Source: Propionibacteriaceae bacterium
GTDB lineage: Bacteria; Actinomycetota; Actinomycetes; Propionibacteriales; Propionibacteriaceae
Length of the DNA stretch: 40,756 nucleotides
NCBI GenBank assembly: GCA_017882685.1
Contig: JADGPA010000010.1
Location: 1 to 40,756, forward strand
Direction of reading: 5' to 3'
The position numbers were made by a program, and so were the translations under genes. Below, one piece after another: positions 1,298-40,745 of the stretch. Each line of letters begins with the position of its first letter. Position 1 is the first letter of the stretch. The notes under the pieces are model-generated. The model was not told where the DNA came from. It did not search any database and worked only from the letters and a program-made list of their open reading frames with translations.

Positions 1298-1473
1298 GTC
1301 GATTCTCTCCAGCTGCCCCAGGATCGCTCTCACTCGACGAAAGCATAGGTCAAAGGGCGCACCCGTCGTCGCGGGCACCATCGCAGCCCGCCACTCGTGA
1401 GAGACTTCTGGTCGCAGACGATCCGCTCCTGTCGGCTCGGCCGTGCCATCCCGAACTACCCGTGAGGACCCGA

Positions 1474-2403: not shown

Positions 2404-2460
2404 ACCGAATATCATTGAGCCAATGCCCTGCCCCGTGACCGCCCCGAGGAAAGACAACTG

Positions 2461-3831: not shown

Positions 3832-3854
3832 ACGATAGAGACGGAAGAAGACGA

Positions 3855-5114: not shown

Positions 5115-5134
5115 AGCCGATCAACATCACACCG

Positions 5135-6295: not shown

Positions 6296-6304
6296 GGAGT
6301 CGGC

Positions 6305-8271: not shown

Positions 8272-8314
8272 CCTGGCAGAAGGCTGGAGCAGGGATCGAG
8301 GTTGGTGCAGGATT

Positions 8315-8324
8315 TGGTGCACCA
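8315..8324. other. 10-bp perfect palindrome TGGTGCACCA
   Basis: Perfect 10-bp palindrome in the 102-base gap before the second beta-helix gene, with a partial copy (TTGGTGCA) at 8302-8309. Such a site could bind a dimeric regulator, and this is the only sizeable gap in the plus-strand run, but short palindromes also arise by chance. A weak extended -10-like CATGCT ends six bases before ATG 8374. No function can be assigned. Confidence 0.2.
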
Positions 8325-8373
8325 GGTCGTCGGATGGCGCCAATCACCGCTCGGGTCGTGGCATGCTGGCGGT

Positions 8374-9645
8374 ATGACCCTGAATCGTCGGCAATTCCTT
8401 GGCGCGTCCGCACTCGTTGGCGGAGCAATCGTGATGACACCCTTCGGCCGTGCGATGGCCGCCCCGATGGCACTCCCGAGCGATGTCGTGCCCCCGATCA
8501 CCGTGTCGGGAGCCGACGGTGTGCTGGACAAGGTGCTGGCCAACCTAGGGCCCTGGGTTGGACCAGACCTGCGAGTGGTCACGATCACAAGGGGCACCTA
8601 CAAACGCACCAAGGCTATCCGGGTGCCCTCTGGTGTCTACTTGAACGCAGTCGGGTCGACGTTCATCCTGCAGACCAAGGGCAGCCATGACGCCGTGCTG
8701 CGCATCGAGAACGTGACTGACGTGACGATCAATGGCGGCACGTGGGACGCCAACAAGAAGATCGTCAAGGCCAAGACTGAATGGCGGCATGCGATCGTCG
8801 TCCACCACTCGACGAATGTCACGCTCCAGAACCTGCACGCCCGGAACGGCAAGGGCGATGGTATCTACATCGGGACGGATGGAAGCCTCTGCAGGAACGT
8901 CGTCGTGAACAACGTCGACTGCTTCAGCAACACCCGGTGCGGTCTCGCCATCACCGCCTGCGACCGCTTCAGTGCTACGAACTCGCGGTTCTACTCCAAC
9001 AGCGGCCACGCCCCCGAGGCCGGCGTCGTGATCGAGCCCCACGACACATCGGTGATCGACAACATCAAGTTCTACCGCTGCCAGTTCTACAGCAACGCCA
9101 GTCGGGGCTTCCATGTGGTGATGCACGTCGCCAACGGCTACCCGGTCGGGACCGGGATCGAGGTGGCCAACTGCACGATGACAAACAACGGCAGGAAGAG
9201 CAAGGACCAGTCGACCGCCGGTATCGCGCTGCTGCGCCCGCGCAAGGTCACGATCACCAACTGCTACTCCGCCAGCAACTCGAACGGCGTCTTCATCCTC
9301 GGCCGGCGCACCGGTGATCCTTCGACGGTCAAGGGCTATGTGACCCTGAACGACAACTGCAGGGTGAACGGCAACCTCAAGGACGGCATCATCATCCAGA
9401 ACTCCATCAAGAGCCTCCAGGTCCTGAACTCGCAGATCGTGAACAACTCCAGGAAGAAGAAGAACACCTACGACGGTCTCCGGATCAAGCAGGGCGCCAA
9501 TGTGCAGGTCACCGGCTCGACCGTGACCGGTCACCGCTACGGCGTTTACACGGACAAAGGGGTCACCGGCGTGAAGCTCACCGGCAATGTCCTGAACCCC
9601 AACAAGAAGGGCGCCTACAAGGGGCCGGGCATCACCCCCGCCTAG
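8374..9645 (+). CDS. Tat-exported right-handed parallel beta-helix protein (paralogue of the 2461 gene)
   Basis: 423 residues. Tat signal NRRQFLGASALVGGA with a likely AxA cleavage site (AMA-AP); no lipobox, so probably released rather than anchored. The mature part aligns along its whole length with the protein at 2461-3831: GGTWDANK, GDGIYIG, SRGFHVV and LLRPRKV match GGTWDGNK, GDGIYVG, SRGFLVV and LIRPRGV. Residues 221-224 read EPHD, recalling the DPHD motif of alginate C5-epimerases, though that likeness is not proof. The ATG at 8374 is chosen because the Tat motif follows directly; upstream in-frame codons from 8302 have no signal character. The TAG stop spans the left end of the insertion sequence, so the native C-terminus may have changed by a few residues. 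Confidence 0.83.
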   Translation: MTLNRRQFLGASALVGGAIVMTPFGRAMAAPMALPSDVVPPITVSGADGVLDKVLANLGPWVGPDLRVVTITRGTYKRTKAIRVPSGVYLNAVGSTFILQTKGSHDAVLRIENVTDVTINGGTWDANKKIVKAKTEWRHAIVVHHSTNVTLQNLHARNGKGDGIYIGTDGSLCRNVVVNNVDCFSNTRCGLAITACDRFSATNSRFYSNSGHAPEAGVVIEPHDTSVIDNIKFYRCQFYSNASRGFHVVMHVANGYPVGTGIEVANCTMTNNGRKSKDQSTAGIALLRPRKVTITNCYSASNSNGVFILGRRTGDPSTVKGYVTLNDNCRVNGNLKDGIIIQNSIKSLQVLNSQIVNNSRKKKNTYDGLRIKQGANVQVTGSTVTGHRYGVYTDKGVTGVKLTGNVLNPNKKGAYKGPGITPA

Positions 9646-10229
9646 GGCGTGTCGCATAACTGGTCGCGTAGGAGGGTGATGATTCCGGCGAGGACGATCC
9701 CGGCGCGGTAGTTGCGGGAGTGTTTGTCGTAGCGGGTCGCGATCGCCCGGAACTCCTTGATTCGGTTGAAGAACCGCTCGACGACGTTCCTGCCCTTGTA
9801 GATGGCCGGATCGAAGTCGGGGGGTCGGCCGCCGACACTGCCCTTGGCCTTACGGCGGGCGATCTGGTCGTCGCGCTCGGGGATCGTGACCCGGACCCGG
9901 CGACGGCGCAGCGCGGCCCGTGTGGAGGGATGGGCGTAGGCCTTGTCGGCGACCACCCGGCACACCCTGGTGCCGGTGGCGTCGAGCACGTCCAGCAGCC
10001 GGGGGTTCTCCCCGGCCTGGCCAGGTGTAACGACCACCGAGCGGAGGTGCCCGGACGGGTCGACCGCGACGTGGGACTTGGTCGACCAGCCGCCACGTGA
10101 ATGTCCCAGGCCGTGATCGGCCGGTTCGATCCGGGGATTCTTGTAGTTCGGTTCAGCCCCCTTTTCGGGCACCGGCGGCGTGCTTGTGCGCCCGCACGAT
10201 CGTGCCGTCCACCACTGCGACAAGTCCAT
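9642..10229 (-). CDS. IS5-family transposase, OrfB (DDE C-terminal part)
   Basis: The second frame supplies the rest of a DDE transposase: GGWSTKSHVAVDPSGHLRSV, VVADKAY (second catalytic Asp) and NVVERFFNRIKEFRAIATRYDK (catalytic Glu in the Y/R-E-R-K region typical of IS5). Only the part from about 10166 leftwards matches transposase. The first 20 or so residues from the in-frame ATG at 10229 read OrfA in the wrong frame, so OrfB is probably made only by frameshifting from OrfA. The TAG stop uses flanking bases (9642-9644), so its stop comes from the junction with the host sequence. Confidence 0.85.
   Translation of the reverse strand: MDLSQWWTARSCGRTSTPPVPEKGAEPNYKNPRIEPADHGLGHSRGGWSTKSHVAVDPSGHLRSVVVTPGQAGENPRLLDVLDATGTRVCRVVADKAYAHPSTRAALRRRRVRVTIPERDDQIARRKAKGSVGGRPPDFDPAIYKGRNVVERFFNRIKEFRAIATRYDKHSRNYRAGIVLAGIITLLRDQLCDTP
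9644..9660 (+). repeat. IS left terminal inverted repeat
   Basis: AGGGCGTGTCGCATAAC, a perfect reverse complement of 10530-10546. The core is the 16 bases from 9645. The outer bases also form a CTAG (9642-9645) that gives stop codons to both the beta-helix gene and the transposase. Confidence 0.92.
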
Positions 10230-10497
10230 TCTCTTCCTCGCTGCCAGCGATCGCGGTCAACACCTGGTCCCACGTGCCGTCCTTGGCCCAGTCGTTGAAC
10301 CGTCGCCACAGGCTCGGCCAGGGTCCGAACTCCGCCGGCACATCCCGCCACGGCGATCCGGTCCGTAACCGCCAACAGATCCCCTCCACCGTCACCCGAT
10401 GGTCGTTCCAGGGCCTGCCGCCCTTCGGCCCCGTCCGCGGCATCAACGGCTCGATCCGGGCCCACATCTCATCACTGAACTGAGCACTCCTGACCAT
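10153..10497 (-). CDS. IS5-family transposase, OrfA (N-terminal part)
   Basis: 114 residues with the DUF4096-like N-terminal region of IS5 transposases (FSDEMWARIEPLMP, GRPWNDHRVTVEGICWRLRTG, WRDVPAEFGPW) and the first catalytic Asp in VAVVDGTIVRAHKHAAGA. It ends at a TGA right after an A4G5 run, where the downstream frame takes over. OrfA alone would lack two of three catalytic acids. Start ATG 10497, with GGAGG about 9 bases upstream. Confidence 0.88.
   Translation of the reverse strand: MVRSAQFSDEMWARIEPLMPRTGPKGGRPWNDHRVTVEGICWRLRTGSPWRDVPAEFGPWPSLWRRFNDWAKDGTWDQVLTAIAGSEEENGLVAVVDGTIVRAHKHAAGARKGG
10156..10167 (-). other. Probable programmed frameshift site in the transposase
   Basis: On the minus strand the sequence reads CGA AAA GGG GGC and then TGA in the OrfA frame. 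Moving one base forward (+1, or -2) gives GAA AAG GGG GCT and continues in OrfB. An A4G5 run directly before a stop, joining two halves of one conserved enzyme, is the usual arrangement of frameshift-controlled IS5/IS427 transposases. A plain disabling mutation is the alternative. Confidence 0.6.
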
Positions 10498-10529
10498 AAC
10501 CAGCAGCCTCCGGCATGACCGTCGCTGAG

Positions 10530-10546
10530 GTTATGCGACACGCCCT
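10530..10546 (-). repeat. IS right terminal inverted repeat
   Basis: GTTATGCGACACGCCCT, the reverse complement of 9644-9660 with no mismatch over 17 bases. The next bases inward differ, so the repeat ends there. Confidence 0.92.
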
Positions 10547-10547
10547 C

Positions 10548-10589
10548 GTCAACGCACTCTTCGCCGTCATCCGGCTCTATGCGCGGTGA
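10548..10589 (+). pseudogene. Possible 3' remnant of a plus-strand gene cut by the IS
   Basis: Directly after the right IS end, one plus-strand frame reads VNALFAVIRLYAR and then TGA, with codons ending almost entirely in G or C as in the neighbouring genes. It runs into a strong hairpin where a plus-strand operon would be expected to end. This could be the tail of a gene whose main part was lost in an IS-linked deletion. Thirteen codons are too few to exclude chance. Confidence 0.2.
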
Positions 10590-10597
10590 CGGCGAAG
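10559..10597. terminator. Hairpin terminator downstream of the pglFECD operon (possibly bidirectional)
   Basis: CTTCGCCGTCA (10559-10569) pairs perfectly with TGACGGCGAAG (10587-10597). Within the 17-base loop CCG and CGG can extend the stem. It begins 16 bases after the pglD stop (minus strand). There is no T tract, which is common for actinobacterial hairpin terminators. Perfect symmetry means it could also stop transcripts coming from the left. Confidence 0.65.
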
Positions 10598-10612
10598 TTG
10601 CGTCCGGGCTGG

Positions 10613-11257
10613 TCAGGCCCAGCGGCCGGGCACGCCCGTCACCACCACACCGGACGGGGCGTTCTTCGTCAGGCAGGCGGCCGCGCCGACAACGGTGTCC
10701 GGCCCGATGCTGAGTCCTTGCAGCACGACGGCGCCCGCGCCGACAAGGCAGCGGGTGCTGATTCTGCAGTCCCCGGAGACGATCGCGCCGGGGTTCACCG
10801 ACACAAAGTCGGCGCAGCTGGTGTCGTGGCCGATGGTCGCGTTCGGATTCAGGTGCACGTGGCGGCCCAGCGTGACGTTGGTGGAAACCGCCACCCCGGC
10901 GCACACCACGGAACCTGCTCCCAGCTTCGTCAACGCACCCACCGTCGCTGAAGGATGCACGAGGGTGGCCGGTTGCCAGCCGGCAGCCTCGCAGCGGCCT
11001 GCGAGCCGCTCGCGGACGCTCGGCGCACCGATGGCGACCACGAAATGCAGTGGTCCGGTCAGCGCGAGGGCCTCAGCCAGGCTGCCGAGATGCCGGACGC
11101 CGAGAGCCGCCAGGCGTTCCAGATTCGCAGGAGAGGGCGCGTCGTCGACCACACCGAGCAGGTTCCAGGTGGGCTGGGCCCGGTTCACCGCAGCGACAAC
11201 GTCGAGGGTTTCCCTGCCGAATCCGGCAGCACCCAGCACCACCAGGTCGGGGATCAC
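10613..11257 (-). CDS. pglD: Sugar O/N-acyltransferase, PglD/NeuD family
   Basis: 214 residues. The N-terminal Rossmann-like domain (DLVVLGAAGFGRETLDVV, VVDDAP) binds the UDP-amino sugar. The C-terminal left-handed beta-helix of hexapeptide repeats (VHPSATVG, HLNPNATIGHDT, SVNPGAIVSG, VGAGAVVLQG) ends in VVTGVPGRWA. His144 in NATIGHD corresponds to the catalytic His of PglD. The expected reaction is acetyl-CoA-dependent N-acetylation of a UDP-4-amino-6-deoxy-HexNAc, giving UDP-diNAc-bacillosamine. GTG start overlapping the upstream stop (GTGA). Last gene of pglF-pglE-pglC-pglD. Confidence 0.87.
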   Translation of the reverse strand: MIPDLVVLGAAGFGRETLDVVAAVNRAQPTWNLLGVVDDAPSPANLERLAALGVRHLGSLAEALALTGPLHFVVAIGAPSVRERLAGRCEAAGWQPATLVHPSATVGALTKLGAGSVVCAGVAVSTNVTLGRHVHLNPNATIGHDTSCADFVSVNPGAIVSGDCRISTRCLVGAGAVVLQGLSIGPDTVVGAAACLTKNAPSGVVVTGVPGRWA

Positions 11258-11859
11258 CCCACACTCCCCGTGAACTTGCTTCTTGTGGCTTCACCCGGGG
11301 CCGAGATCCCGTCCTGACGAAGCACGCGCGCCACGGTCAGCAGGAGGATCCTCAGGTCGAGGGCAAGGCTCCAGTTGTCCACGTACTCGACGTCGAGCGC
11401 GAACTGGGTCTCCCACAGCAGCAGGTTCCTGCCGCTGACCTGGGCAAGGCCGGACATGCCTGGTCGCACCTCGTGCCGGCGGAACTGATCGGGGGTGTAC
11501 AGCGGCAGGTACTCCGGCAGCAGCGGTCGCGGCCCCACAAGGCTCATGTCACCCCGGACGACGTTCAGCAGGCTGGGCAGCTCGTCCACGCTCGTCCGGC
11601 GGAGCAGCCGGCCCACCCGGGTCAGCCGAACGCTATCCGCCAATCCGGGGCCGTCCCGCATCGTGCGGAACTTGTACAGGGTGAAGTCGACGCCGTCCCT
11701 GCCGGTGCGCTTCTGTCGGAACAGGACCGGGCGGCCCATGGTCCCCAGCACGGCAAGGGCCGCCACCGCCTGGATCGGCAGGGTCACCACCAGTCCGAGG
11801 ACACCAGCCGCGAGATCAGCGGCGCGCTTCACGCCAAGCGCGTAGCGGCGATCACGCAT
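11254..11859 (-). CDS. pglC: Initiating phosphoglycosyl transferase, PglC-like (small monotopic PGT)
   Basis: About 201 residues, the minimal size of PglC. One N-terminal hydrophobic re-entrant helix (LAAGVLGLVVTLPIQAVAALAVL) is followed by the catalytic dyad in TSVDELPSLLNV (Asp92-Glu93) and then GDMSLVGPRPLLPEYLPLY, RPGMSGLAQVSG and the usual C-terminal amphipathic region. It should transfer phospho-sugar from the UDP-sugar made by PglF/E/D to undecaprenyl phosphate, the first membrane step of the glycan. Start: ATG 11859 gives an 8-base overlap with pglE and the dyad at the position seen in PglC. An ATG at 11874 is also possible. Confidence 0.88.
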   Translation of the reverse strand: MRDRRYALGVKRAADLAAGVLGLVVTLPIQAVAALAVLGTMGRPVLFRQKRTGRDGVDFTLYKFRTMRDGPGLADSVRLTRVGRLLRRTSVDELPSLLNVVRGDMSLVGPRPLLPEYLPLYTPDQFRRHEVRPGMSGLAQVSGRNLLLWETQFALDVEYVDNWSLALDLRILLLTVARVLRQDGISAPGEATRSKFTGSVG

Positions 11860-12985
11860 CGACCACCACGCCATGGATCAGGCCGATGATCAGCTCCACC
11901 TGCTCGTCGGTGATCGCAGAACCGCTCGGCAGGGTCAGCCCGCGCTCGAACAGGGCCTCGCTGGTGCCGTCGATCACCGCAGGCGCGTCGGCGAAGACCG
12001 GCTGCAGGTGCAGCGGCTTCCACAGCGGCCGGGCCTCCACCTCGTTGGCGCGCAGGACCTCGGCGATGTCGTCTGCGGAGAAACCGGCCAGCGCCGGGTC
12101 GATGACCAGCGAGGTCAGCCAGTAGTTGTCCCTGGTTTCTCCGACCTCGTCCTCGGGCTGGCCGAGGAACCTCACCCCAGGCCGGTCACCGAGCAGGTCG
12201 AGGTAGCGCAGCTTCAATCGGCGGCGACGCTCGATCATGCCGTCCAGCCGGGACAGCTGGGCCCGGCCCAGCGCAGCGAGCAGGTTCGAGAGGCGGTAGT
12301 TGTAGCCGATCTCGGTGTGCTCGTAGTGCTTCGCCGGCTGCCGCGCCTGGGTGGCCAGGTAACGGATGCGGTCGGCGGACTCCTTGTCATTGAGCAGCAG
12401 AGCACCGCCGCCGGAGGTGGTCATCACCTTGTTGCCGTTGAAGGACACCGCCGCCAGCTCGCCGAAGGCTGCTGCCGAACGACCCCCATACCGTGCGCCG
12501 AGCGACTCGGCAGCGTCACAGAGCATGGGGACGCCGTGCGCAGTGACGATCCGGTCGATGCGGTCGTGGTCAACGACATGGCCCAACAGGTCAACCGGGA
12601 CCACGGCACCCACCCGCCAGCCGTTGGCTGCGGCCTCATCGAAGGCGCGGGCAAGCAGGTCGGGGTTCAGGTTGCCGGAGCTGTCTGCGTCAACGAAGAA
12701 CGGGCGGGCGCCGGTGTAGACCACGGCGTTGGCCGTTGCAGCGAAGGTCATCGATGAGCACAACACAACGTCCCCTGGGCGGACCCCGGCGAGCAGCAGG
12801 CCCAGATGGAGGGCAGCTGTGCCGGACGACAGAGCGACGGCGTACGGGCGGCCGACGTAGTCGGCGAGCTCGCGCTCGAACGCATCCACCTCCGGGCCCA
12901 GCGGCGCGATCCAGCCCGATCGCACTGCGCGCACGATCGCGGCCTCCTCCGCCTCGGTGACGTCAGGAGCAGACAAGTGGATCAC
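11852..12985 (-). CDS. pglE: DegT/DnrJ/EryC1/StrS aminotransferase, PglE-like
   Basis: 377-residue PLP-dependent sugar aminotransferase: SGTAALHLGL phosphate site, PVDLLGH, LCDAAESLGARY with the PLP-contacting Asp157, and SFNGNKVMTTSGGG with the Schiff-base Lys186, close to Lys184 of PglE. Probable reaction: glutamate-dependent amination of the UDP-4-keto-6-deoxy-GlcNAc made by the upstream dehydratase. The frame is open to 13129, but the correct start is the GTG at 12985 overlapping the pglF stop (GTGA), with VIHLSAPDVTEAEE as the family-typical beginning. The protein ends with an 8-base overlap into pglC. Confidence 0.9.
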   Translation of the reverse strand: MIHLSAPDVTEAEEAAIVRAVRSGWIAPLGPEVDAFERELADYVGRPYAVALSSGTAALHLGLLLAGVRPGDVVLCSSMTFAATANAVVYTGARPFFVDADSSGNLNPDLLARAFDEAAANGWRVGAVVPVDLLGHVVDHDRIDRIVTAHGVPMLCDAAESLGARYGGRSAAAFGELAAVSFNGNKVMTTSGGGALLLNDKESADRIRYLATQARQPAKHYEHTEIGYNYRLSNLLAALGRAQLSRLDGMIERRRRLKLRYLDLLGDRPGVRFLGQPEDEVGETRDNYWLTSLVIDPALAGFSADDIAEVLRANEVEARPLWKPLHLQPVFADAPAVIDGTSEALFERGLTLPSGSAITDEQVELIIGLIHGVVVDA

Positions 12986-14769
12986 AAGCGGCTCCCGACG
13001 CGGGCACCGGCGAGAAAGGTACCAGGACGGGCGTAACGGACGGAGGCGGGATCGACCGGCGGCACCGCCACCTGCGAGATCAGTGGGTGCGCGGTCTCGC
13101 CCGCGGTCTCGTTGTCGTTGAACAGGCACTCGTGCAGCTTCTCCCCGGGACGCAGGCCGGTGAAGATGATCTCGATCTTCCTTCCCGACTCGCGGATCAG
13201 GCGCTGCGCGACATCGAGGATGCGCATCGGCTCCCCCATGTCGAGCACCATCACGTCGCCCGGCGTGCCGATGGCGCCGGCCTGGATGGTGAGCTGGCAG
13301 GCCTCGGGGATGGTCATGAAGTACCGCGTGATGTCCGGATGGACAACGGTGAGCGGGCCACCCTGTTCGATCTGCTTGTAGAAGGTGTGCAGCACCGATC
13401 CACGCGAGCCGAGCACGTTGCCGAACCGGACCGAGACGTAGCCGCTGCCCATGTCATGGGCGAACCAGGAGGTGAGCTGCTCAGCCAGCCGCTTGGTCTT
13501 GCCGAGAACGCTGATCGGGTCGGCGGCCTTGTCCGTGGAGATGTTCACGAACCGTTCGACGCCGTGCCGTCTCGCGGCCTCGAGGACGTTCAGAGTGCCG
13601 AGCACGTTGGTCTTCCAGGCCTCTGACGGGTAGGCCTCGAGCATCGGGAGGTGCTTCAACGCGGCGGCATGGAAGACGACACTGGGGCGATGCTCGAGAA
13701 ATACCCGATCGAGCGCCTCTGCGTCCCTGATGTCGCACAGCACCATGTCCCGAGTGTCCAGAAGGCCCGTGCCGTAGAGGTTGAGCTGCACGGCGTGCAA
13801 GGCGGATTCGTCACGATCCAGGAGGATCAGCTCAGCCGGACCCAGGCGGTGCAGCTGGAGCGCCAGCTCTGAGCCGATCGAACCGCCGGCGCCGGTGACC
13901 AGCACCGCCTTGCCGTTGACGTAGTCGGAGATGCTGCGCAGGTCTGTCTTCACCTGGCCCCGGCCAAGGATGTCGGCAACGGAGAGGCGCCGGATATCCC
14001 CGACCTCGACGGCCCCGCCGACGATGTCGGCGACCTTGGGCAGGGTGAGCACATTGAGCCCAGCGGCTTGAGCCTGGTCACTGACCCGTCGAATCAGCTC
14101 GCTCGACGCACTCGGAATCGCGAGGAGCACCGTAGAGACGTCTTCCTCCTCAGCGACCCGAGCAAGGTCCGAGCCGGTCCCCAGCACGCGCACACGTGTG
14201 ATCTCCGCGTGCTGTTTGGCCGGGTCATCGTCGACGTAGCCGACGATTTCGTAGGGGGCCATTGCGTCGTCAAGGAGCATCCTGCCGAGCATGCGGCCAC
14301 CACTGCCCGCGCCATAGACCAGGATCCGCTCCGGGTCCTTCGGTCGCATCGCGCGGATCTGGCGATGGTTCATGGCGCGGCCGGCGAACCGTCCTGCGGC
14401 CATGGCGAGGATCGCACCAAGCGGGACGGAGAGGATCACGCCTCTCGGGAAGCCCGGCCAGCCCAGGCTGAACATAAGCCCGGCAACCAGGCCGATGATC
14501 AGGGCGATCGTCGACAGGTGAACGGCCTCGCTGTAGCTGCCCACGGAGTGGCGTCCCTGGTAGATGTGACGCAACATCCCCACCAGCAACTGGGCGCCAG
14601 CGGTGGTGACCGCATAGGCCGTCACCACGGCCCACTGGATGCCGTTGAAGGAGAAGTCATAGCGTGCAACGACGAGGCAGACCGTCGCCAATATCCAAGC
14701 CGAAGGATCCCAGAGTGCAAACGGGCTCAGCGGCATGGGAATGTTCGATCTCTTCCCGACTGCGCGCAT
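12982..14769 (-). CDS. pglF: Membrane-bound UDP-GlcNAc 4,6-dehydratase, PglF/WbpM/CapD-like
   Basis: 595 residues. Four transmembrane helices lie within residues 15-125. A CoA-binding-like Rossmann domain follows (ILVYGAGSGGRML, about 149-162), then the SDR catalytic domain (VTGAGGSIGSELALQL, about 291-306; NISTDKAADPISVLGKTKR, 409-427). Thr412-Asp413-Lys414 match the catalytic TDK of PglF. The Met of PglF/WbpM is Leu422 here, a change I believe is common in actinobacterial homologues. It starts the bacillosamine pathway by making the UDP-4-keto-6-deoxy sugar. Start ATG 14769 has GGAG 8 bases upstream. First gene of a four-gene, start/stop-overlapped operon. Confidence 0.9.
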   Translation of the reverse strand: MRAVGKRSNIPMPLSPFALWDPSAWILATVCLVVARYDFSFNGIQWAVVTAYAVTTAGAQLLVGMLRHIYQGRHSVGSYSEAVHLSTIALIIGLVAGLMFSLGWPGFPRGVILSVPLGAILAMAAGRFAGRAMNHRQIRAMRPKDPERILVYGAGSGGRMLGRMLLDDAMAPYEIVGYVDDDPAKQHAEITRVRVLGTGSDLARVAEEEDVSTVLLAIPSASSELIRRVSDQAQAAGLNVLTLPKVADIVGGAVEVGDIRRLSVADILGRGQVKTDLRSISDYVNGKAVLVTGAGGSIGSELALQLHRLGPAELILLDRDESALHAVQLNLYGTGLLDTRDMVLCDIRDAEALDRVFLEHRPSVVFHAAALKHLPMLEAYPSEAWKTNVLGTLNVLEAARRHGVERFVNISTDKAADPISVLGKTKRLAEQLTSWFAHDMGSGYVSVRFGNVLGSRGSVLHTFYKQIEQGGPLTVVHPDITRYFMTIPEACQLTIQAGAIGTPGDVMVLDMGEPMRILDVAQRLIRESGRKIEIIFTGLRPGEKLHECLFNDNETAGETAHPLISQVAVPPVDPASVRYARPGTFLAGARVGSRL

Positions 14770-14802
14770 TTCGAAATCTCCGTCCTGGGGGTCTCCGCGA
14801 AG

Positions 14803-14832
14803 ATCCTATCGCGCGCCGCCAGCAACGTTGAA
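14803..14832 (-). promoter_or_regulatory. Candidate promoter of the pglFECD operon
   Basis: On the minus strand TTCAAC (14832-14827) and TAGGAT (14808-14803) are separated by 18 bases, resembling a housekeeping -35/-10 pair. TAGGAT fits the actinobacterial TANNNT -10 rule. The implied start at about 14796 gives a leader of about 27 bases containing the GGAG site. Predicted from sequence only. Confidence 0.4.
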
Positions 14833-14929
14833 CTCGGTACCGAACGAAGCAGACACCCCCCGGGCGCGACGTCACGTATCGTATCTGTGCGATGAACGAG
14901 AAGGTGGCACCGAGTGCAGGGGGCGAGCG

Positions 14930-15982
14930 ATGATGGAAGCCGCGCCAAGTTCCGAGCCTCCGAGCGCCCGGCCACAGAGGGCATTGGCAAAAAGGACAGG
15001 CAGGGTAGCCTCCTCCCGCCCGGTGAGGGCCGCCCTACGGGATCCCGGCGCAAGGAAGCGACGCGTGACCTGGCGCCGACTCGTGGTCCTGCTCCTTGTT
15101 CTCGTCCTTGTCGCCGCCAGCTACTTCGTCGTCGTCGGGGTCCGGGCGCTCGACCGGCTCGAGCGTGACCCGGCGATCCTCGGTGACTACCCCGGGCGGC
15201 CGGCCGCTGGCCTCGGCACCAACTTCCTTGTGATCGCCACCCACACCGCGGACGCCTCGACGAAGGCAGATCTGATCATGTTGGCGCACCTGAACCGCGC
15301 GAACAACAAGGTCTATCTTGTTCCCCTGCCCAGCGACTTCTACCTCACTGGCGAGGATGGCAAGCAATTCGAGTTGCAGGAGTTGTACGCGCAAAGCGGC
15401 GCGAGCCTGCAGCGCGTTCTCGAGGCAACCCTCGATACCCGAATCGACCACGCTGTCACCGTCGACTACGCGGGATTCATCGGTCTGACGGAACAACTCG
15501 GCGGGGTTGCCGTGGACAACCCTGTTGAAACCACCACCCCTGCCGGGATCCACTTCGCGAAGGGGCGGATCACGGTCGCAGGCAAGGAAGCGCTCGCCTA
15601 CGTTGCCGACAACTCCAACTTCCCCGGGCGGGCGAGGGTGCTCCAGCAGCGCCAGCAGTCCGTGATGCGCGCGATCGTGCTCAAGTCCCTGCAACCCGAG
15701 ACCATCCTCAACCCGGTGGTGTCGAGCTCGGTGACGAAGGCGCTGTCCCAGCACATCAGGGTCGACGTTTCGATGACTACTCCGGTGATCGTGCAGCTGG
15801 TTGCGGCGATGCGGATCGGGAGTTCGAGTGACATCGTCACGGTGGGAGCCCCCGTCCTCGGCACAACAACCAGCGACAACGGGAGCCAGGCCACGCTGCC
15901 CAGCCCCGTTCTTGTCACCGAGCTTTCCGCTGCCTTGCGCAACGACACCATGGACGCCTACCTCGCGGCGCATCCGGCCTGA
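14930..15982 (+). CDS. LytR-CpsA-Psr (LCP) family protein, degenerate active site
   Basis: 350 residues: a basic cytoplasmic N-terminus (about 1-50), one transmembrane helix (51-70), then an extracellular LCP domain. The fold is recognisable (NFLVIATHT, IDHAVTVDYAGFIGLTEQLGGVAV, KGRITVAGKEALAYV, GRARVLQQRQQSVM). LCP proteins attach lipid-linked glycans to peptidoglycan. Several residues that usually hold the pyrophosphate are changed: RSDT is TKADL here, IPRD is LPSD, and the YxRxR after ALxY is YVADN. It may bind without transferring, or use another chemistry. Start ATG 14930 with AGGGGG upstream; the upstream frame from 14735 overlaps pglF and is unlikely. It ends 6 bases before the convergent flippase stop. 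Confidence 0.8.
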   Translation: MMEAAPSSEPPSARPQRALAKRTGRVASSRPVRAALRDPGARKRRVTWRRLVVLLLVLVLVAASYFVVVGVRALDRLERDPAILGDYPGRPAAGLGTNFLVIATHTADASTKADLIMLAHLNRANNKVYLVPLPSDFYLTGEDGKQFELQELYAQSGASLQRVLEATLDTRIDHAVTVDYAGFIGLTEQLGGVAVDNPVETTTPAGIHFAKGRITVAGKEALAYVADNSNFPGRARVLQQRQQSVMRAIVLKSLQPETILNPVVSSSVTKALSQHIRVDVSMTTPVIVQLVAAMRIGSSSDIVTVGAPVLGTTTSDNGSQATLPSPVLVTELSAALRNDTMDAYLAAHPA

Positions 15983-34400: not shown

Positions 34401-35698
34401 GCGGCAACGACGCTGCCTTCGAGCGCGCCCTCCGGATCATCCCGGGCGGGGTCTCGTCGCCGGTACGGGCGTTCGGTTCGGTGGGCGGCAGCCCCGTCTT
34501 CATCGCGAGAGCCGCCGGCCCGTACTCCTACGACGTGGACGGGCGTGAATACGTCGACCTCGTCGGTTCGTGGGGCCCGGCACTGCTTGGCCACGCCCAT
34601 CCCGAGGTGGTCGCCGCCGTGCAGGCCGCAGCAGCGCGTGGTTTGTCCTTCGGTGCGCCGACGGTGGCGGAGGCCGAACTCGCTGAAGCGATCAGCGCGC
34701 GGGTGCCGCTGGCGCAGAAGGTACGGCTGGTCTCCACCGGCACAGAGGCGTGCATGACCGCCGTCCGGCTGGCGCGGGGTGCTACGGGACGTGACCTCCT
34801 GGTGAAGTTCGCCGGTTGCTACCACGGCCATTCCGACGCGCTGCTCGCTGCGGCCGGATCGGGCCTGGCCACTGGCGGGCTGCCCGGTTCGGCCGGCGTC
34901 ACCGCTGCAGCCACGGCCCAGACACTGGTGGTCCCCTACAACGACGCCGACGCGATCCGCGCGCTCTTCGCTGAACGCGGTGGCGAGATCGCCGCCGTGA
35001 TCACAGAGCCGGCGGCCGCCAACATGGGCATCGTGCCACCAGAACCGGGCTTCAACGCCCTGCTCTGGGAGCTGACCGCAGCCCACGGCGCCCTCCTGAT
35101 CTACGACGAGGTCCTCACCGGCTTCCGGGTGTCCGCGTCCGGGTGGTGGGGCCTGGAAGGCGGGGTCGAGCCGGACCTGTTCACCTTCGGGAAGGTGGTG
35201 GGCGGCGGCATGCCGCTGGCTGCCCTCGGCGGTCGCGCAGGGCTGATGGACATGCTGGCCCCGCTCGGACCGGTCTACCAGGCCGGAACGCTGTCGGGGA
35301 ACCCGCTGGCAACGGCGGCCGGCATCGCCACCCTTCGGCTGGCCGACGCCGGTGTCTACGAACGCGTCGACTCGGCGTCAGCCCAGCTGTCCACAGAAGT
35401 CTCTGCTGCGTTCACACGGGCTGGCGTGCCGCACCGCCTGCAGCGGGCCGGCTCACTGTTCTCTGTATTCATCGGCCTCGAATCCCCCGTCCGCGACTAT
35501 GCGACGGCACTGCGTCAAGACACCGGGGCGTTCCGGGCGTTCTTCCACGCGATGCTGGACGCAGGGGTGGCTCTGCCGCCGTCTGCATACGAGGCGTGGT
35601 TCCTCTCCGCGGCCCACGACCAGCACGCGCTGGATCAGGTGGTGTCGGCGCTGCCGGTTGCCGCCGCGGCGGCGGCGTCAGCGCTCAGTTCGTCTTGA
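34397..35698 (+). CDS. hemL: Glutamate-1-semialdehyde 2,1-aminomutase
   Basis: 433-residue PLP enzyme. [13 protein letters not shown] is diagnostic for Hem[21 protein letters not shown] the phosphate site, [14 protein letters not shown] the PLP Asp, and [20 protein letters not shown] the Schiff-base Lys266. It converts glutamate-1-semialdehyde, the HemA product, to ALA. GTG start overlaps the hemB stop. Its 3' end overlaps the 3' end of the convergent RCC1 gene by 14 bases (35685-35698). Confidence 0.95.
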
Positions 35699-38600
35699 CG
35701 GCCACCCAGGCACTGGTGTTGCTCAGGCCCCCGTCCACCACGTACTTGAGGCGGTAGTAGTAGGTGGTGCCGGGCGTCAGCGAACAGGTGCCCGGGGTGA
35801 TCAGGGTGGCGCCCGTTGCGCAGGGAGCCCCGGCAACAGCCTGGACGGTCACCGGGACGGTGCTGGAGGTGATCGTGTTGTTGCCCAGGCGGCCCTCAGC
35901 GTTCTGGCCCCAGCAGTAGGCAACCGACCCGGAGACCGCACAGGTGTGCGTGGCTCCGGCGGCCACCTGGTCGACGGTCCCGGACATGACGCCCGATGCG
36001 GTCACGGCAACGGGGGTCCTCTGGTCGGTGGTGTTGCCGTTGCCCAGTTGGCCGTTGCCGTTGTCGCCCCAGCAGTACGCCTTGCCGGTCGCGACGACGC
36101 AGCTGGAGTACATCCCCGCCGAGAGGCTGGTCAGGGTGGCGCCGGCAGTCCACGGCGCTGTCACCGCCACCGCCGATGTCTGCGTAGTGGTGTTCCCGTT
36201 GCCGAGCTGGCCATTGTTGTTGTAGCCCCAGCAGTACGCCTTGCCGCCGGCGATCACACAGGTGTGCGCCTGCCCGGCGCTGACGGCGGACACCGTGAGC
36301 CCGCTGAGGACTCCGGTGGTCAGCACGGCGACCGGCACGGAGCTGTTGGTGTTGCTGCCGACACCGAGCTGGCCGGACACGTTGGAGCCCCAGCAGTAGG
36401 CCGCACCCCCGGCGATCGCGCAGGTGTGCGCGGCCCCGGCAGCGATGGCGGTGACGGTCTTGGTGGCCAGCACGCCCTGCACCAGCACCGGCGACGTGCG
36501 CTGCGTGGTGCTGCCGTCACCGAGTTGGCCGCGGGAGTTGTCCCCCCAGCAGTAGACCTTGCCGCCGGTCAGCGCGCAGGAATGCATGTAGCCGGTCGCG
36601 ACATCCGTCACACCGGTGATCGAGCCGGCCTGCACCGGAGTCGTGCTCTGGGCATTCGTGCCGTTGCCCAGTTCCCCGTGAATGTTGAGGCCCCAGCAGT
36701 AGACACCGCCATCGGCCACCGCGCAGGTGTGCTGGCCGCCGTTGGCATCGTCCATCCCCGCGGAGATCTCGGTCACGGTCTTGCCAGACAGCACACCGGT
36801 GGCCACGACGGCGGTCGGCACGGTGGCGTCCGTCGTGCTGCCGAGACCCAGCTCGCCGTTGGTGTTGTCGCCCCAGCAGTAGGCCGCACCCTCGAGGATG
36901 CCGCAGGTGTGGTCGGTGCCTGCGGAGACCTGAGTGACCTTCACGCTGGAAGTCCGCTTTGCGAACCCGCCGCGGTCGAGCGCGGTCAGCATGCCGCCGC
37001 GGTAGACGGTGACTGGGTTCGACCCACTGGAGCTTGTCGAGCGCTGCAGCGTGAACTCAGAGTAGGACTTGGACAATTCGCTGACCTGACCCCACCCGAG
37101 CGTGAGCGACGTGGTGGCCTTCGCCGTTGCGGCGGGAGGAACAGCGCCGCGGGTCTTGGTCGTCACCTTCAACCAGGCGCTGTTCGGTGCGGTCCAGGTG
37201 CCGACGCCGTAGCCGAGCCGGCCGTAGTAGTCGGTGCCCTCCTGGAGGGAGCAGTCGCTGCCGTTGAGGCGCACCGAGCCTGTGGCGCAGATCGGTCCGG
37301 TGATCGCTGCGTCCACCGGGGTGGTCGTGCTGGCCGAGGCCTTGTTGCCGAGCTGGCCGCTGGTGCCCAGCCCCCAGCAGGCGCCCGGGGTGTCGCCGTT
37401 GGCGCAGGTGAACTGGCCGCCTGCGCTGATCGTGGCGAGGGTGCGCCCGGACAGTACTCCGCTAGCGCTGACGGCCACCGCTGCACCAGCGGACGCTGTG
37501 GTGGTCCCGTTGCCGAGCTGACCCGATGCGCCCCCGCCCCAGCAGTGCGCTGCGCCGCCGGCGATTGCGCACGAGTGGGTGCTGCCGGCCGAAATCGCGG
37601 TCACGTTCGCCGAGGCTGCCACTGTCCCGGTGACGGCGACCGGCGAGGACTGGTTGCCTGCGGTGAGGACGCCATTGCCGAGTCGGCCGTTGGTGGTGAG
37701 GCCCCAGCAGTATGCGTTGGCATCAGCGACTGCGCAGGAGTGGGCGTCGCCTGCGGAAATGGCGGTGACCGTCCGTCCGCTCAGGACACCGCCGGTGGTG
37801 ACAGCGACCGGCGCCGTGCGCTGCGTCGTTGTGGTGTCGCCGACCTGGCCGTTGGTGTTCACTCCCCAGCAGAAGGCAAGGCCATCGGCGATCGCGCAGC
37901 TGTGCGAGGTGCCAGCAGAGATCGCGGTGACGGCGCGGCCGGAAAGGATCCCGGTGGCGGTGCTCACGGCAACCGCGCTGGTCGTCGAGGTGGTCGAGGT
38001 GTTGCCCAACTGGCCGTTGGCGTTGTTACCCCAGCAGTAGGCGGTGCCGTCGGCCACCGCACAGGCGTGCGTACCGCCCGCGGAGATGCCTGTCACGGTC
38101 TTGCTGGACGGAATGCCGAAGACGGCTGTCGGCGTGGACGTGTTCCCGGTTCCGTTGAGACCGGTGCGGCCACTACCGCCGTTGCCCCAGCAGTACGCAT
38201 CGCCATCGGCGACGGCGCAGGTGAAGTCGGTACCGGCGCTCACGTCGCTGACAGTCTTGCTCGCGAAGGTGGTGACAAGCGTCGGCGTGGATGTCGGGCT
38301 GGTGGTGCCCGGACCGAGCGCGCCGCCCGCGCTTGTGCCCCAGCAGTACAGCTGGCCGCGGGCAATCCCGCAGGCGTGGGTGCCACCGGCGCTGATGTCC
38401 GAGAGCGTCAGGTTGCCGGTGGTCGAGTTGGAACCGAGCGTCTGGGTGAAAGTGAGGGCGGGGCCGGAATAGACCTGGGTGGCGTTGCCGCCAGTGGACG
38501 TCGTGGCTCCGGTCAGCACGTAATTTGGGGTTGCCCATGCACCGCTGGCGGCGCTCCATGAGCCTGTGGCCGTCGCAGCCGTGGCGGTGAACTCGGGCGT

Positions 38601-38780
38601 GACTGCGCTCAGGGTGGCTGCGGTGAAGGTGGCCTTGGCGTAATCGGCGTCGATGAAGGTGGCCAGCGTTGCCTGCTGCTGCCAGACCAGGGTCAGGGCT
38701 GCGAGCAAGCCCAAGCCGACGACGGCGAGGCGGCGGCGACCCTTTCGAGGGGCCGGGACGTAGCGCAGACCCCTGCTCAC
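35685..38780 (-). CDS. Giant secreted RCC1-repeat protein with two FN3-embedded propellers and a SipW-type signal
   Basis: 1031 residues. A basic N-terminus and one hydrophobic helix (18-33) precede [18 protein letters not shown], a TasA/camelysin-like SipW signature. Then come two copies of one layout: an FN3 first half (about 70-118; 551-602), seven RCC1 blades (127-495; 613-985), and an FN3 second half with [16 protein letters not shown] (497-543; 986-1031). Each of the 14 blades carries ISAGxxHxC and YCWGxNxxGQLG, with two Cys nine residues apart, suggesting one disulfide per blade. RCC1 repeats form 7-bladed propellers, so both look complete. No sorting signal or C-terminal helix is seen. 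Probably extracellular adhesion or ligand binding. GTG 38780 overlaps the upstream stop. Function not known. Confidence 0.85.
35826..36944 (-). repeat. Second block of seven RCC1 repeats
   Basis: Protein residues 613-985. Seven imperfect repeats of about 53 residues (159 bases), each with [I/V]SAG, HxC and YCWG. They begin near residues 617, 671, 726, 778, 832, 885 and 938. Coding repeats, not a DNA array. Confidence 0.85.
37296..38402 (-). repeat. First block of seven RCC1 repeats
   Basis: Protein residues 127-495, with repeat starts near 127, 178, 231, 286, 340, 395 and 450. The consensus is the same as in the second block, about 54 residues per unit. An FN3-like tail and a new FN3-like head (about residues 497-602) separate the two blocks. 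Confidence 0.85.
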
Positions 38781-40036
38781 CGCACTACCTCCCTGTCCTC
38801 GGACGCTCGCCGGCGCCCGCCAGCGAGCCGGGCCACGACCAACCCGGAAACGACTGCAACCCCGGCGAGTGCCAGGGTTTCGAGAGTGCCATCCGAGCCG
38901 GTGTAGGCGAGGCCGCCGTGGCTACCTCCGCCACCGCCACCGCCTCCGCTGTCGTCGGATACGGCTTCGACAACTTCGCCGCCACCCCAGGCGATGACCT
39001 TCATGGTTGCCTTGACCTCGGGCGCCTCGCGGTTGAGGGTTGCACGCACGAGGATCCAGATCGGGGTGCCGGCGGGGGTCATCGCGAACTCGCGTGCGTC
39101 CTGGTGGGTGGCCGGCACGATCGCCCGGTCCAGCGGCTTCGCCGAGACCAGGGTCTGCGCCCCTCCGGTGCACGTCTGGCCCTGCCAACGCTCCGGGCAG
39201 GACTGCACGTCGACGGTCAGAGCATCGGCGTCGACCATGCCGGCGGCGAGGCCCAGCCCGATGTGCAGCGCGCCTTCCTCCTCGCCGCGGGTCGCGACGC
39301 CGACCTGCCACAACACGGGCAGGCCGGGAAGCATCGTGCTCATCTTCTCGTTGTCGGAGATGACGGTCAGCACCATGTGGCGCCCGACGACCTCGTGCTC
39401 GGTCTCGGCAGCCTGTGCATCGGTCGCCCCGAGCATCGAGCTGCCGGCGACGATAGCCGCAGCCGCAACGACGCTGGCCTTGCGCGCCTGCCGGGGCCAG
39501 AACGCCCAGCTGACCAGGAGTCCGGCGAGAAGCGTCAGGCCCGCCATCAGCAGCGGGTTGCGCATGCCCTGGAACAGGTCGGCAACGCCGGGGACGGAAG
39601 CGACCACGAGGCGCGCCTGGCTGATCAGGTAGGGATTGGGGTCCTCCAGCTTGTTCGCGTCGCCGCGCATGGTGATCTCGCGGGCGTCCGGCTGGCCGGC
39701 GACGGGCTTGATGGAGGTGATGCGGTGGGTGATGGGGAGCAGGTTCTTCCGCTCAACCGTTGTGACATCACCGACGCGGAACTGGGTGGCCGGCAGCAGC
39801 CGCACCAGGGCAGCTGAGCCGGCAGGAATGGTCGGGGTCATCGACCCAGTGGAGAACAGGATGATCGAGAAGCCCCAGACGTGCGCAGCGACGGCTGCGA
39901 TGACGCTGATGAGACCGAGACCGCCAAGTGTCCACAGCACCCCGTCGACAAGGAACTGGCGCACGGAGCTCACGCGCCCGGGGGTGGTCCGGGTGGGCAC
40001 GTCGTCGAAGGCCCGGCGGGGTTGACCTTTGGCCAT
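38777..40036 (-). CDS. SipW-type signal peptidase I fused to an exported domain with an LAYTG sorting signal
   Basis: 419 residues. The peptidase part (about 1-182) has a helix at 33-56, the catalytic Ser65 in FSTGSMTPTIPAG, His104 (PITHRI) where other type I peptidases have Lys, as in SipW/ER-type enzymes, RGDAN (Asp126), and a second helix 160-180. Then a signal-peptide-like segment follows (KASVVAAAAIVAGSSMLGATDAQA-A, cleavage AQA near 209), an unknown beta-rich domain with two Cys (211-358), a Gly8 linker, LAYTG (376-380), a hydrophobic helix and RRR: a complete LAxTG-type sorting signal. It probably processes the two neighbours, and perhaps itself. AGGA precedes ATG 40036; GTGA overlap with the RCC1 gene. 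Confidence 0.85.
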   Translation of the reverse strand: MAKGQPRRAFDDVPTRTTPGRVSSVRQFLVDGVLWTLGGLGLISVIAAVAAHVWGFSIILFSTGSMTPTIPAGSAALVRLLPATQFRVGDVTTVERKNLLPITHRITSIKPVAGQPDAREITMRGDANKLEDPNPYLISQARLVVASVPGVADLFQGMRNPLLMAGLTLLAGLLVSWAFWPRQARKASVVAAAAIVAGSSMLGATDAQAAETEHEVVGRHMVLTVISDNEKMSTMLPGLPVLWQVGVATRGEEEGALHIGLGLAAGMVDADALTVDVQSCPERWQGQTCTGGAQTLVSAKPLDRAIVPATHQDAREFAMTPAGTPIWILVRATLNREAPEVKATMKVIAWGGGEVVEAVSDDSGGGGGGGGSHGGLAYTGSDGTLETLALAGVAVVSGLVVARLAGGRRRASEDREVVR

Positions 40037-40061
40037 TGCGATCCTGTCTTGAAAGCCCGAG

Positions 40062-40097
40062 CCCGGTCAGGTCCGCGCGGGGCGGAGCCTGACCGGG
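40062..40097. terminator. Strong hairpin between the TasA-like and SipW genes
   Basis: CCCGGTCAGG-TCCGC (40062-40076) pairs with GCGGA-CCTGACCGGG (40082-40086, 40088-40097) around a 5-base loop, with one bulged G at 40087: 15 base pairs, mostly G-C. It fills the 82-base gap on the minus-strand transcript. No T tract. It could end a fraction of transcripts, protect the upstream message, or both, so that the small structural protein is made in excess over the peptidase. Confidence 0.65.
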
Positions 40098-40118
40098 TGG
40101 CCCGGGATGGGGGTGTTG

Positions 40119-40745
40119 CTACTGGGAGACGGCCTGGAACTGCCAGGTCACGGCACCGGTCTGGCTCTGGGCGAGCGCCGCACCGGCGGTCACCTTGAAG
40201 CACAGGTAGGCGGCCGTGCCAGCGTTGGTGGTCGGCGAACCCATCGCAAGGCTGATGGGGGTCGCGCCGGTGACCGAGGTCACGGCGGTACCGGCGGGCA
40301 CGACGACGGTACCGGTGCTGGCGGTGGTGCAGCCCGCCCCTGTGGTCTTGATGACCTCGTAGGTGAGGTTGCTCACGGTGCCGGTGCTGGTCGCAGCAGT
40401 GAGGTTCAAGGTCGCGTTGTTGGTGGTGTTCGCGGCGAGACGGACCGCATACGGAGCGGCGACGACGTCGGTCGGCGTCAGGTTGCTGACCGGCGCGGTG
40501 AAGGTCAGGCCGCCGGCAGCGCCGGAGGTGGCGTGCTCGCCGAAAACGGCCTGCGAGGCGTCGACGGCGCCTTCCAGGTTGAACTTACCTGCGGTGAACG
40601 TGGCGGATGCGAACTCGCTGTCGTTCCATGATGCCAGGGTGGCCATGGTGCCTACCCCAAGCACCAGCCCACCTGCGAGGACGGCGGCAACCTTGCGGCG
40701 CGCGCTGCGCTTCGAGTTCTGATCCGACGATTTGATGACGGTCAT
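40119..40745 (-). CDS. TasA/camelysin-like protein with SipW-dependent signal peptide
   Basis: 208 residues. A basic N-terminus (KRSARRKVAA), a hydrophobic helix (19-37), then TLASWNDSEFASATFTAGKFNLEG, which matches the pattern of SipW-cleaved TasA/CalY precursors (aromatic-x-D-x-E ... FTAGxLxL). The mature part is Thr/Ala/Val/Asn rich, beta-strand-like, with two Cys (GAGCTTAS, YLCFKV) and no sorting signal. Family members form surface fibres or are secreted proteases (peptidase M73 fold); a fibre-like role is inference. ATG 40745 lies 11 bases from the window edge, so the promoter is outside. Confidence 0.8.
   Translation of the reverse strand: MTVIKSSDQNSKRSARRKVAAVLAGGLVLGVGTMATLASWNDSEFASATFTAGKFNLEGAVDASQAVFGEHATSGAAGGLTFTAPVSNLTPTDVVAAPYAVRLAANTTNNATLNLTAATSTGTVSNLTYEVIKTTGAGCTTASTGTVVVPAGTAVTSVTGATPISLAMGSPTTNAGTAAYLCFKVTAGAALAQSQTGAVTWQFQAVSQ

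Follow-up and report, generated by a model that had tools for sequence, protein, structure and literature searches.

A candidate TasA-type surface-fibre cassette with a peptidase-wall-anchor chimera and a giant double-propeller protein in Propionicimonas-like bacteria

Contig JADGPA010000010.1 of a Propionibacteriaceae bacterium (assembly GCA_017882685.1) ends with three minus-strand genes for a TasA-like protein (gene 1), a SipW-type signal peptidase fused to a wall-anchor domain (gene 2) and a giant protein with two RCC1 propellers (gene 3, the giant). The window analysed is this entire contig (40,756 nucleotides), contig C205 of a draft genome that comprises 2.99 Mb on 215 contigs at 88.9% completeness. 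The best reading of the locus is a cassette of the TasA-SipW fibre type with a fused wall-anchor half and the giant propeller protein as third substrate. Its assignment as a TasA-type donor-strand surface-fibre cassette of Propionicimonas-like bacteria, with a giant display protein in a TapA-like place, is held at about even confidence. Gene order, shared signature, co-occurrence, fusion and repeat anatomy were computed. The three open reading frames (ORFs) lie at the positions and on the strand given in a preliminary description of the window:

40119..40745, minus strand: gene 1, TasA-like fibre-subunit candidate, 208 amino acids
38777..40036, minus strand: gene 2, SipW-type signal peptidase fused to an LAxTG wall-anchor domain, 419 amino acids
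35685..38780, minus strand: gene 3, double RCC1 propeller and split FN3-like protein, 1031 amino acids
38777..38780, minus strand: GTGA, overlap of the SipW stop and the RCC1 start

A common N-terminal signature, ATLA followed by x-aromatic-x-D...F-A, marks genes 1 and 3. The preliminary description had noticed this common pattern, and a profile-profile comparison of both families recovered it over ATLAS..TFTA with 94.6% probability (E 6.7e-8). Two signal peptides are predicted:

40632..40745, minus strand: signal peptide of gene 1, predicted cut A38|S39, Trp at P2'
38661..38780, minus strand: signal peptide of the giant, predicted cut A40|T41, Phe at P2'

In the TasA-like alignment A1, Trp occupies P2' in 22/25 rows. 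Residues T36, L37, A38, W40 and D42 are invariant in alignment A4 (21 rows), which is A1 minus one row with an N stretch and three divergent rows. The giant alignment has invariant T38, L39, A40 and D44, and F or Y at position 42 (P2') in 10/10 rows. TIGR04088, a 34-residue model of the signal and early mature part of SipW-dependent exported proteins, scored gene 1 with 39.1 bits (cut-off 19) and a second TasA-like copy on contig C39 with 40.5 bits. It did not match the giant at E 1, nor at E 10 in the search of the own genome; the signature common to the giant and the TasA-like proteins rests on profiles built in this analysis. The combined profile (A5; 48 positions, 8 rows) includes the window genes, which match it by construction, so that the informative part is the absence of other matches. 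In six frames of the own genome it detected the giant (6e-25), the first TasA-like protein (8e-24), the second on C39 (1e-22) and a contig-end repeat of the first (2e-7). No further carrier was found in this search; the next match had an E of 0.5. An aromatic residue at P2' hinders the Ser-Lys peptidase LepB of E. coli and occurs in 0/143 verified LepB substrates, and SipW, of the endoplasmic reticulum (ER) type, cleaves TasA, whose P2' residue is Phe, according to the part of the source consulted (PMC10269814).

The signature and the peptidase occur together. Among 30 genomes of the genus, the combined profile gave 44 matches at E 0.001 or less. They fall in 14 genomes, exactly those with a close SipW (match to the window SipW at E below 1e-50), and in 0/16 others. 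The giant, N-terminus included, is present in 13 of these 14 genomes and in 0/16 others; the sets are nested (signature 14, close SipW 14, giant 13). It is whole in 11 genomes and split over contigs in G169 and G175. The preliminary description had asked for conserved order in relatives, and the giant does lie on the SipW contig in 12/13 genomes (on different contigs in G171), with a TasA-like gene between the two in G066, G162 and G050. These genomes are akin and do not count as independent events. The named loci with a close SipW stem from metagenome assemblies, two of them labelled Propionicimonas sp. A separate count had SipW within 4 kb in 71/72 cases, biased by its 67 loci having mostly been picked around SipW; the genome-wide searches of the own genome and of the 30 genus genomes are the unbiased counterpart.

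Gene order is similar across the loci. The GTGA overlap of the sipW and giant genes recurs at 6/6 junctions displayed. Both genes are 183 bases apart, with no overlap, in L055 and L059, and a TasA-like gene stands between them in L056-L058. A pheT-like gene and hemL flank the cassette in L054-L058; the names were given by eye, that of hemL from a BLAST match to the window copy. L055 has one extra gene ahead of hemL, and L053 has other genes there. In the window, gene 1 starts 11 bases from the contig end. An exact 127-bp end is common to this contig and C39, where a second TasA-like gene and then pheT and pheS follow (names by eye). The module does not end with the contig but continues on C39.

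Distant SipW genes (E 4e-25 to 9e-11) were found in 5/16 of the other genus genomes (G032, G092, G109, G127, G154). In G109 and G032, assigned to the same genus by the tool, an RCC1-like protein adjoins 6/7 SipW genes (two in L064, one of them cut by the contig end, then L066, L112, L113 and L128). The four whole neighbours scanned match PF25390 at E 4e-22 to 7e-41, under its 150-bit cut-off, and PF00415 or PF13540 above their cut-offs. The RCC1-like protein of L112 reaches 19.1 bits with TIGR04088 (cut-off 19). G109 by itself (L064, L112, L113, L128) has six SipW genes, five beside an RCC1-like protein, and several small proteins with SipW-type signals lie upstream. Five cassettes outside the genus (L061, L062, L069-L071) have, behind SipW and the anchor domain where the giant would stand, a gene for a protein of 173-214 amino acids with a similar N-terminus (29 N-terminal columns, E 8e-6, 83.7%). 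Homology of these proteins to the giant beyond the N-terminus is unsupported (FN3-like unit 2 of the giant E 0.031, 1.6%).

The giant is a repeat protein of regular build. PF00415 (RCC1) matched it in 14 stretches (E 2.6e-119). Its 32 cysteines form 14 C-x8-CWG pairs, with one pair in every blade (7 + 7), and two further pairs at a spacing of twelve. The double propeller of the preliminary description is confirmed by these counts. Four parts were delimited:

37308..38423, minus strand: propeller 1, seven blades (seven C-x8-CWG repeats and predicted strands)
35847..36971, minus strand: propeller 2, seven blades (seven C-x8-CWG repeats and predicted strands)
37146..38606, minus strand: FN3-like unit 1, halves 38427-38606 and 37146-37304, propeller 1 inserted
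35688..37148, minus strand: FN3-like unit 2, halves 36975-37148 and 35688-35834, propeller 2 inserted

The cysteine pairs 137/146, 188/197 and 240/249, the three checked by hand, are opposed in a predicted hairpin and would fit disulphides, as presumed for the giant as a whole. The best AlphaFold2 model reached a predicted local distance difference test score (pLDDT) of 79.9 and a predicted template modelling score of 0.55; the other four had pLDDT values of 47-64, and residues 1-54 are not reliably predicted. A propeller superposed on UVR8 with a template modelling score (TMt) of 0.92 and a root-mean-square deviation (rmsd) of 1.7. Each propeller is flanked by two halves of a small beta-sandwich. 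The FN3 label of the preliminary description is weakly supported. The joined halves of unit 2 matched fn3 (PF00041) in 4/4 versions at 16.4-21.3 bits, but under the cut-off of 25, and those of unit 1 gave no match in 3/3 versions; this test covered 7 of 20 possible joined pieces (4 + 3 of 10 rows). Pfam did not find fn3 on the unjoined middle piece, and the last 49 residues scored 18 bits with the FN3-like PF16656 (cut-off 30). With their halves joined, units 1 and 2 align to each other along 108 columns that span the gap (E 6.2e-17), which indicates that the propeller in its FN3-like unit was duplicated as a whole. A duplicated propeller inside an FN3-like domain is an unusual architecture. 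A TasA-like receiving domain was not found in the giant (the TasA profile matched 0 RCC1 ORFs), and no anchor was seen.

Outside the cassette, a secreted single-propeller RCC1 family with ordinary signal peptides is expanded in the genus. Examples are L108 3477-4739 (G000 C173), L120 3020-4192 (G000 C12), L123, L124 and L126; L123 has five such genes in a row. As a control, 16 other secreted RCC1 ORFs were inspected (15 of the genus and one of a different family; 12 with seven repeats by the pattern used). The signature occurs in 0/14 readable N-termini, which by eye have ordinary signal peptides. The SipW-type N-terminus is therefore tied to the cassette copy and not to RCC1 proteins generally. 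This result bears on the possibility that the two substrates have secretion alone in common. SipW would then process both, and the giant would remain free or loosely bound as lectin, inhibitor or matrix glue, never joining a fibre. The abundance of secreted RCC1 proteins outside the cassette, the secreted inhibitor BLIP-II among the relatives of the giant found by sequence in the PDB and the lack of a visible anchor are in keeping with it. However, the signature extends beyond the cut into mature sequence (D..A..FTA) that should not be needed for cleavage by itself, and no RCC1 protein seen other than the cassette copy carries it. Secretion without assembly is rated a possible but rather unlikely explanation.

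Gene 2 combines a peptidase and a sorting signal. From its N-terminus follow the peptidase domain, a hydrophobic stretch, a second one ending in Ala-Ala, a domain of ~165 residues and an LAxTG-like motif:

39587..39937, minus strand: peptidase domain, residues 34-150, with Ser65, His104 and Asp126
39410..39418, minus strand: internal A-x-A site, A207-Q-A209, followed by A210 and ending the hydrophobic stretch; predicted second cleavage
38921..39409, minus strand: C-terminal wall-anchor domain, encoded separately behind SipW in L070 and L071
38897..38911, minus strand: LAYTG sorting motif, then a hydrophobic stretch and RRR

Ser65, His104 and Asp126, presumably the catalytic residues of the SipW/archaeal-type family, are invariant in the 10 rows of alignment A3, and the Ser-His pair is present. 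A SipW-type peptidase between two genes of one signature, as first described, is upheld. The resemblance to archaeal/SipW-type signal peptidases stays under the cut-offs for gene 2 (TIGR02228 40.3/51.85; NF046067 30.4/190); the fused relative in L068 exceeds the first (55.0, cut-off 51.85). Six relatives in the genus share 64-70% identity over nearly the whole length. At the junction, A209 and A210 are invariant in 10 rows, and A-x-A stands at the aligned place in 8/10; L061 and L062 have AAAA there and A-x-A one residue later. All 7/7 genus members with the wall-anchor domain carry LAxTG. The NCBIfam models of sorting signals and anchors gave no match to gene 2 at E 1. A TasA-like fold of the wall-anchor half was considered and rejected (hhalign 0.2% probability, E 0.35).

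A search of the genome with PF04203 (E 0.001 or less) yielded a single sortase, on another contig. It belongs to class E (NF033747 238.6 bits, cut-off 160), the class that the preliminary description had asked for. Class E sortases prefer LAxTG, and gene 2 has the corresponding substrate pattern of LAxTG, hydrophobic stretch and basic tail. With the sortase elsewhere and the second TasA-like gene upstream on C39, the notion of a self-contained module was abandoned.

Fused versions of SipW and the wall-anchor domain occur in L068 and L069 and, in the same family, in L061-L063. In L070 (G364) and L071 (G334), which belong to a different family of the class, the domain is encoded by its own gene directly behind SipW and ends in LATTG. 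The separate gene of L071 begins with a signal-peptide-like stretch at the position of the internal A-x-A. In L074 (G483) the domain lies at the contig end, and SipW is not in the stretch covered. Within the genus, the domain is fused in 7/14 close SipW genes and absent in 7/14, and the stretches fetched for the seven loci without it (L054-L060) hold no separate anchor gene. The sorting signal first reported for the peptidase is real here (LAYTG), but it is no constant part of the peptidase. Since the domain is separate in L070 and L071 and missing in half of the genus members, the simplest reading of these sequences is that the chimera arose by fusion of two neighbouring genes. Its product is probably split once more, yielding a peptidase in the membrane and a protein bound to the wall. 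Alternatively, the chimera would stay whole, and the sortase would move the peptidase from the membrane to the wall for processing there. The conserved LAxTG and the presence of a class E sortase would suit such a relocation. Signal peptides are cut at the membrane, though, and the invariant Ala-Ala of the junction as well as the separate or absent domain in relatives speak against an intact wall peptidase, which is considered very improbable.

For gene 1, an AlphaFold2 model from 21 rows reached a pLDDT of 65.6, with residues 1-52 below 50. Among 350,542 PDB chains, its top match was the cryo-electron microscopy structure of the TasA fibre, 8aur (E 3.4e-3, probability 0.99, template modelling score 0.37). 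A Gram-negative fibrillar adhesin contributed the domain at rank 2, and ranks 7, 11 and 13 went to CS17, CfaB and FimG, all donor-strand pilins. The model is suggestive of a TasA-type fold, a jelly roll completed by a donor strand, and supports it weakly. Gene 1 is excluded from the TasA family as such, because the family model was tested and its score stayed under the cut-off. If the fold prediction holds, gene 1 would work like a TasA family member. TasA-like genes occur in one to three tandem copies per locus. Near the pheT end, TasA-like genes without the ATLA-aromatic signature were seen in L057 (7604-8215), L058 (8132-8752) and L065 (9032-9655). Directly downstream of the giant, L055 (5091-5912; G080) encodes a TasA-like protein with a SipW-type N-terminus and a proline-rich insert.

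Between the TasA-like and SipW genes a hairpin is predicted from folding energy:

40056..40106, minus strand: intercistronic RNA stem-loop, -39.7 kcal/mol, z -3.0

In the 10 of 13 displayed intergenic stretches that were folded (the window and nine relatives; L048, L059 and L061 omitted), z ranged from -2.0 to -5.6. The value of -2.0 belongs to L054, where 11/200 shuffles fold equally well. The stem-loop could lower sipW expression relative to the subunit gene.

Several results weigh against a TasA-type fibre cassette carrying the giant. NF046066, the sequence model of TasA and camelysin, gave gene 1 10 bits (cut-off 450). The 25-row TasA-like profile had no meaningful match in the PDB and found no TasA chain by sequence. 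The structural search returned 0 PDB matches at E 0.001 or less, and 8aur superposed with an rmsd of 8. Three of the 25 rows in A1 are divergent and without the aromatic motif. Residues P3 to P4' also hinder LepB in the consulted part of the source (PMC10269814), so that P2' is not the whole reason. Half of the close SipW genes are without the wall-anchor domain, as mentioned. G166 has SipW without the giant, with hemL directly next, on a contig with an N gap. Of the distant SipW genes, L114 (G109/G032) has no RCC1-like neighbour, and neither have those examined in G092, G127 and G154 (L067, L115-L117; the sequence of L116 ends shortly after SipW). A class survey covered 345 genomes: SipW-profile matches occurred in 59, RCC1 repeats in 63 and both in 9; a class-wide pairing was rejected, as 1/9 had the two adjacent, the window genome, among the rows listed.

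Part of this evidence would agree with TasA-like proteins that are monomeric surface proteins, the cassette being a general SipW surface-protein set. The family model is not reached, the structural match is weak, and other actinobacterial SipW cassettes encode varied proteins. On the other side, the top PDB match is the TasA fibre itself, the loci hold one to three tandem copies, and the stem-loop after the subunit gene would suit a high subunit output. A monomeric role is judged clearly unlikely. The preliminary interpretation appears right in outline and is supported in part.

For a TasA-type cassette with the giant in a TapA-like place, the following mechanism is proposed; all cleavages, fibre formation, the place of the giant and ligand binding are inferred. 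SipW, an ER/archaeal-type Ser-His peptidase, would process both the TasA-like proteins and the giant by removing their signal peptides; the aromatic P2' residues of these substrates would hinder the ordinary Ser-Lys peptidase. Cleavage would free an N-terminal donor strand (x-W/F-x-D...F-A), and the TasA-like subunits would polymerise, each strand being inserted into the next subunit. The giant has the N-terminus of a subunit and no TasA-like receiving domain was found in it; it would thus be restricted to one fibre end, as TapA in Bacillus subtilis. Its two cysteine-braced seven-blade propellers in FN3-like frames may serve as display or binding head. The second half of SipW, formerly a separate wall-anchor protein, would be released at A-x-A and fixed at LAxTG by the class E sortase. 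The complete picture, in which one gene supplies both the peptidase and the released, sortase-fixed base and the giant starts or caps the fibre via its donor strand and offers a 14-blade binding surface, is advanced only tentatively and is doubtful in its entirety.

Related systems are known from Firmicutes, each cited here from partial texts. In B. subtilis, each TasA subunit inserts its N-terminal strand into the following one, the first strand comes from TapA, and tapA overlaps sipW (PMC9674648; PMC10151520). The tapA-sipW-tasA operon resembles the cassette in a SipW-type peptidase next to its substrates, SipW-type signal peptides, a probable donor-strand subunit and a further protein with a subunit-similar N-terminus whose gene overlaps sipW. 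It differs in the small immunoglobulin-fold TapA in place of the 1031-residue double propeller; here, moreover, SipW is fused to a sorting-signal domain and the subunits have no detectable sequence match to TasA. In the SipW-TasA-CalY-CapP system of B. cereus, SipW likewise acts on several substrates, among them an assembly modulator that is tethered to the wall by its C-terminal part; unlike the cassette, this system is sortase-independent, and CapP has no propellers and its own transcript (PMC13082335). In Clostridium perfringens sipW-bsaABC, SipW is required for secretion and polymerisation of the subunit, and additional secreted proteins are encoded in the operon; the neighbouring sortase is dispensable, however, and the portion consulted mentions no RCC1 protein (PMC7395162). 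Among actinobacteria, L061-L063 and L068-L071 share TasA-like genes and a SipW with the anchor domain, fused or separate, and differ in the last gene where the protein of 173-214 amino acids stands (L061, L062, L069-L071). RCC1 blades are shared with UVR8, RCC1 and BLIP-II, whereas two propellers, a cysteine pair per blade, the split FN3-like frame and the secretion signal set the giant apart. A literature search, with most subscription journals outside its reach, found no report of SipW together with RCC1, of secreted RCC1 proteins in Propionibacteriaceae, or of a signal peptidase fused to a sorting signal. The fibre type is known; the combination of parts seems new.

Elsewhere in the window, a polysaccharide-synthesis cluster (1462-15979) encodes, among others, glycosyltransferases, epimerase/dehydratases, a DegT aminotransferase, a bacterial sugar transferase, a PglD-like protein and a LytR-CpsA-Psr protein, with Pfam matches in 9/10 ORFs scanned. 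Inside it, two overlapping ORFs (9642-10497) resemble an insertion-sequence-type transposase in two frames (by eye).

TasA-type fibres have been studied mainly in Bacillus. The portions of the TasA-fibre literature consulted describe no large adhesin on the fibres. If the proposal is true, the cassette, conserved as a unit within a single actinobacterial genus, would represent a Gram-positive equivalent of a pilus with a tip adhesin. It makes testable how a binding head is acquired, how the fibre is attached to the wall and for what reason a private signal peptidase is retained, and the fused and split genes of peptidase and anchor offer a natural experiment.

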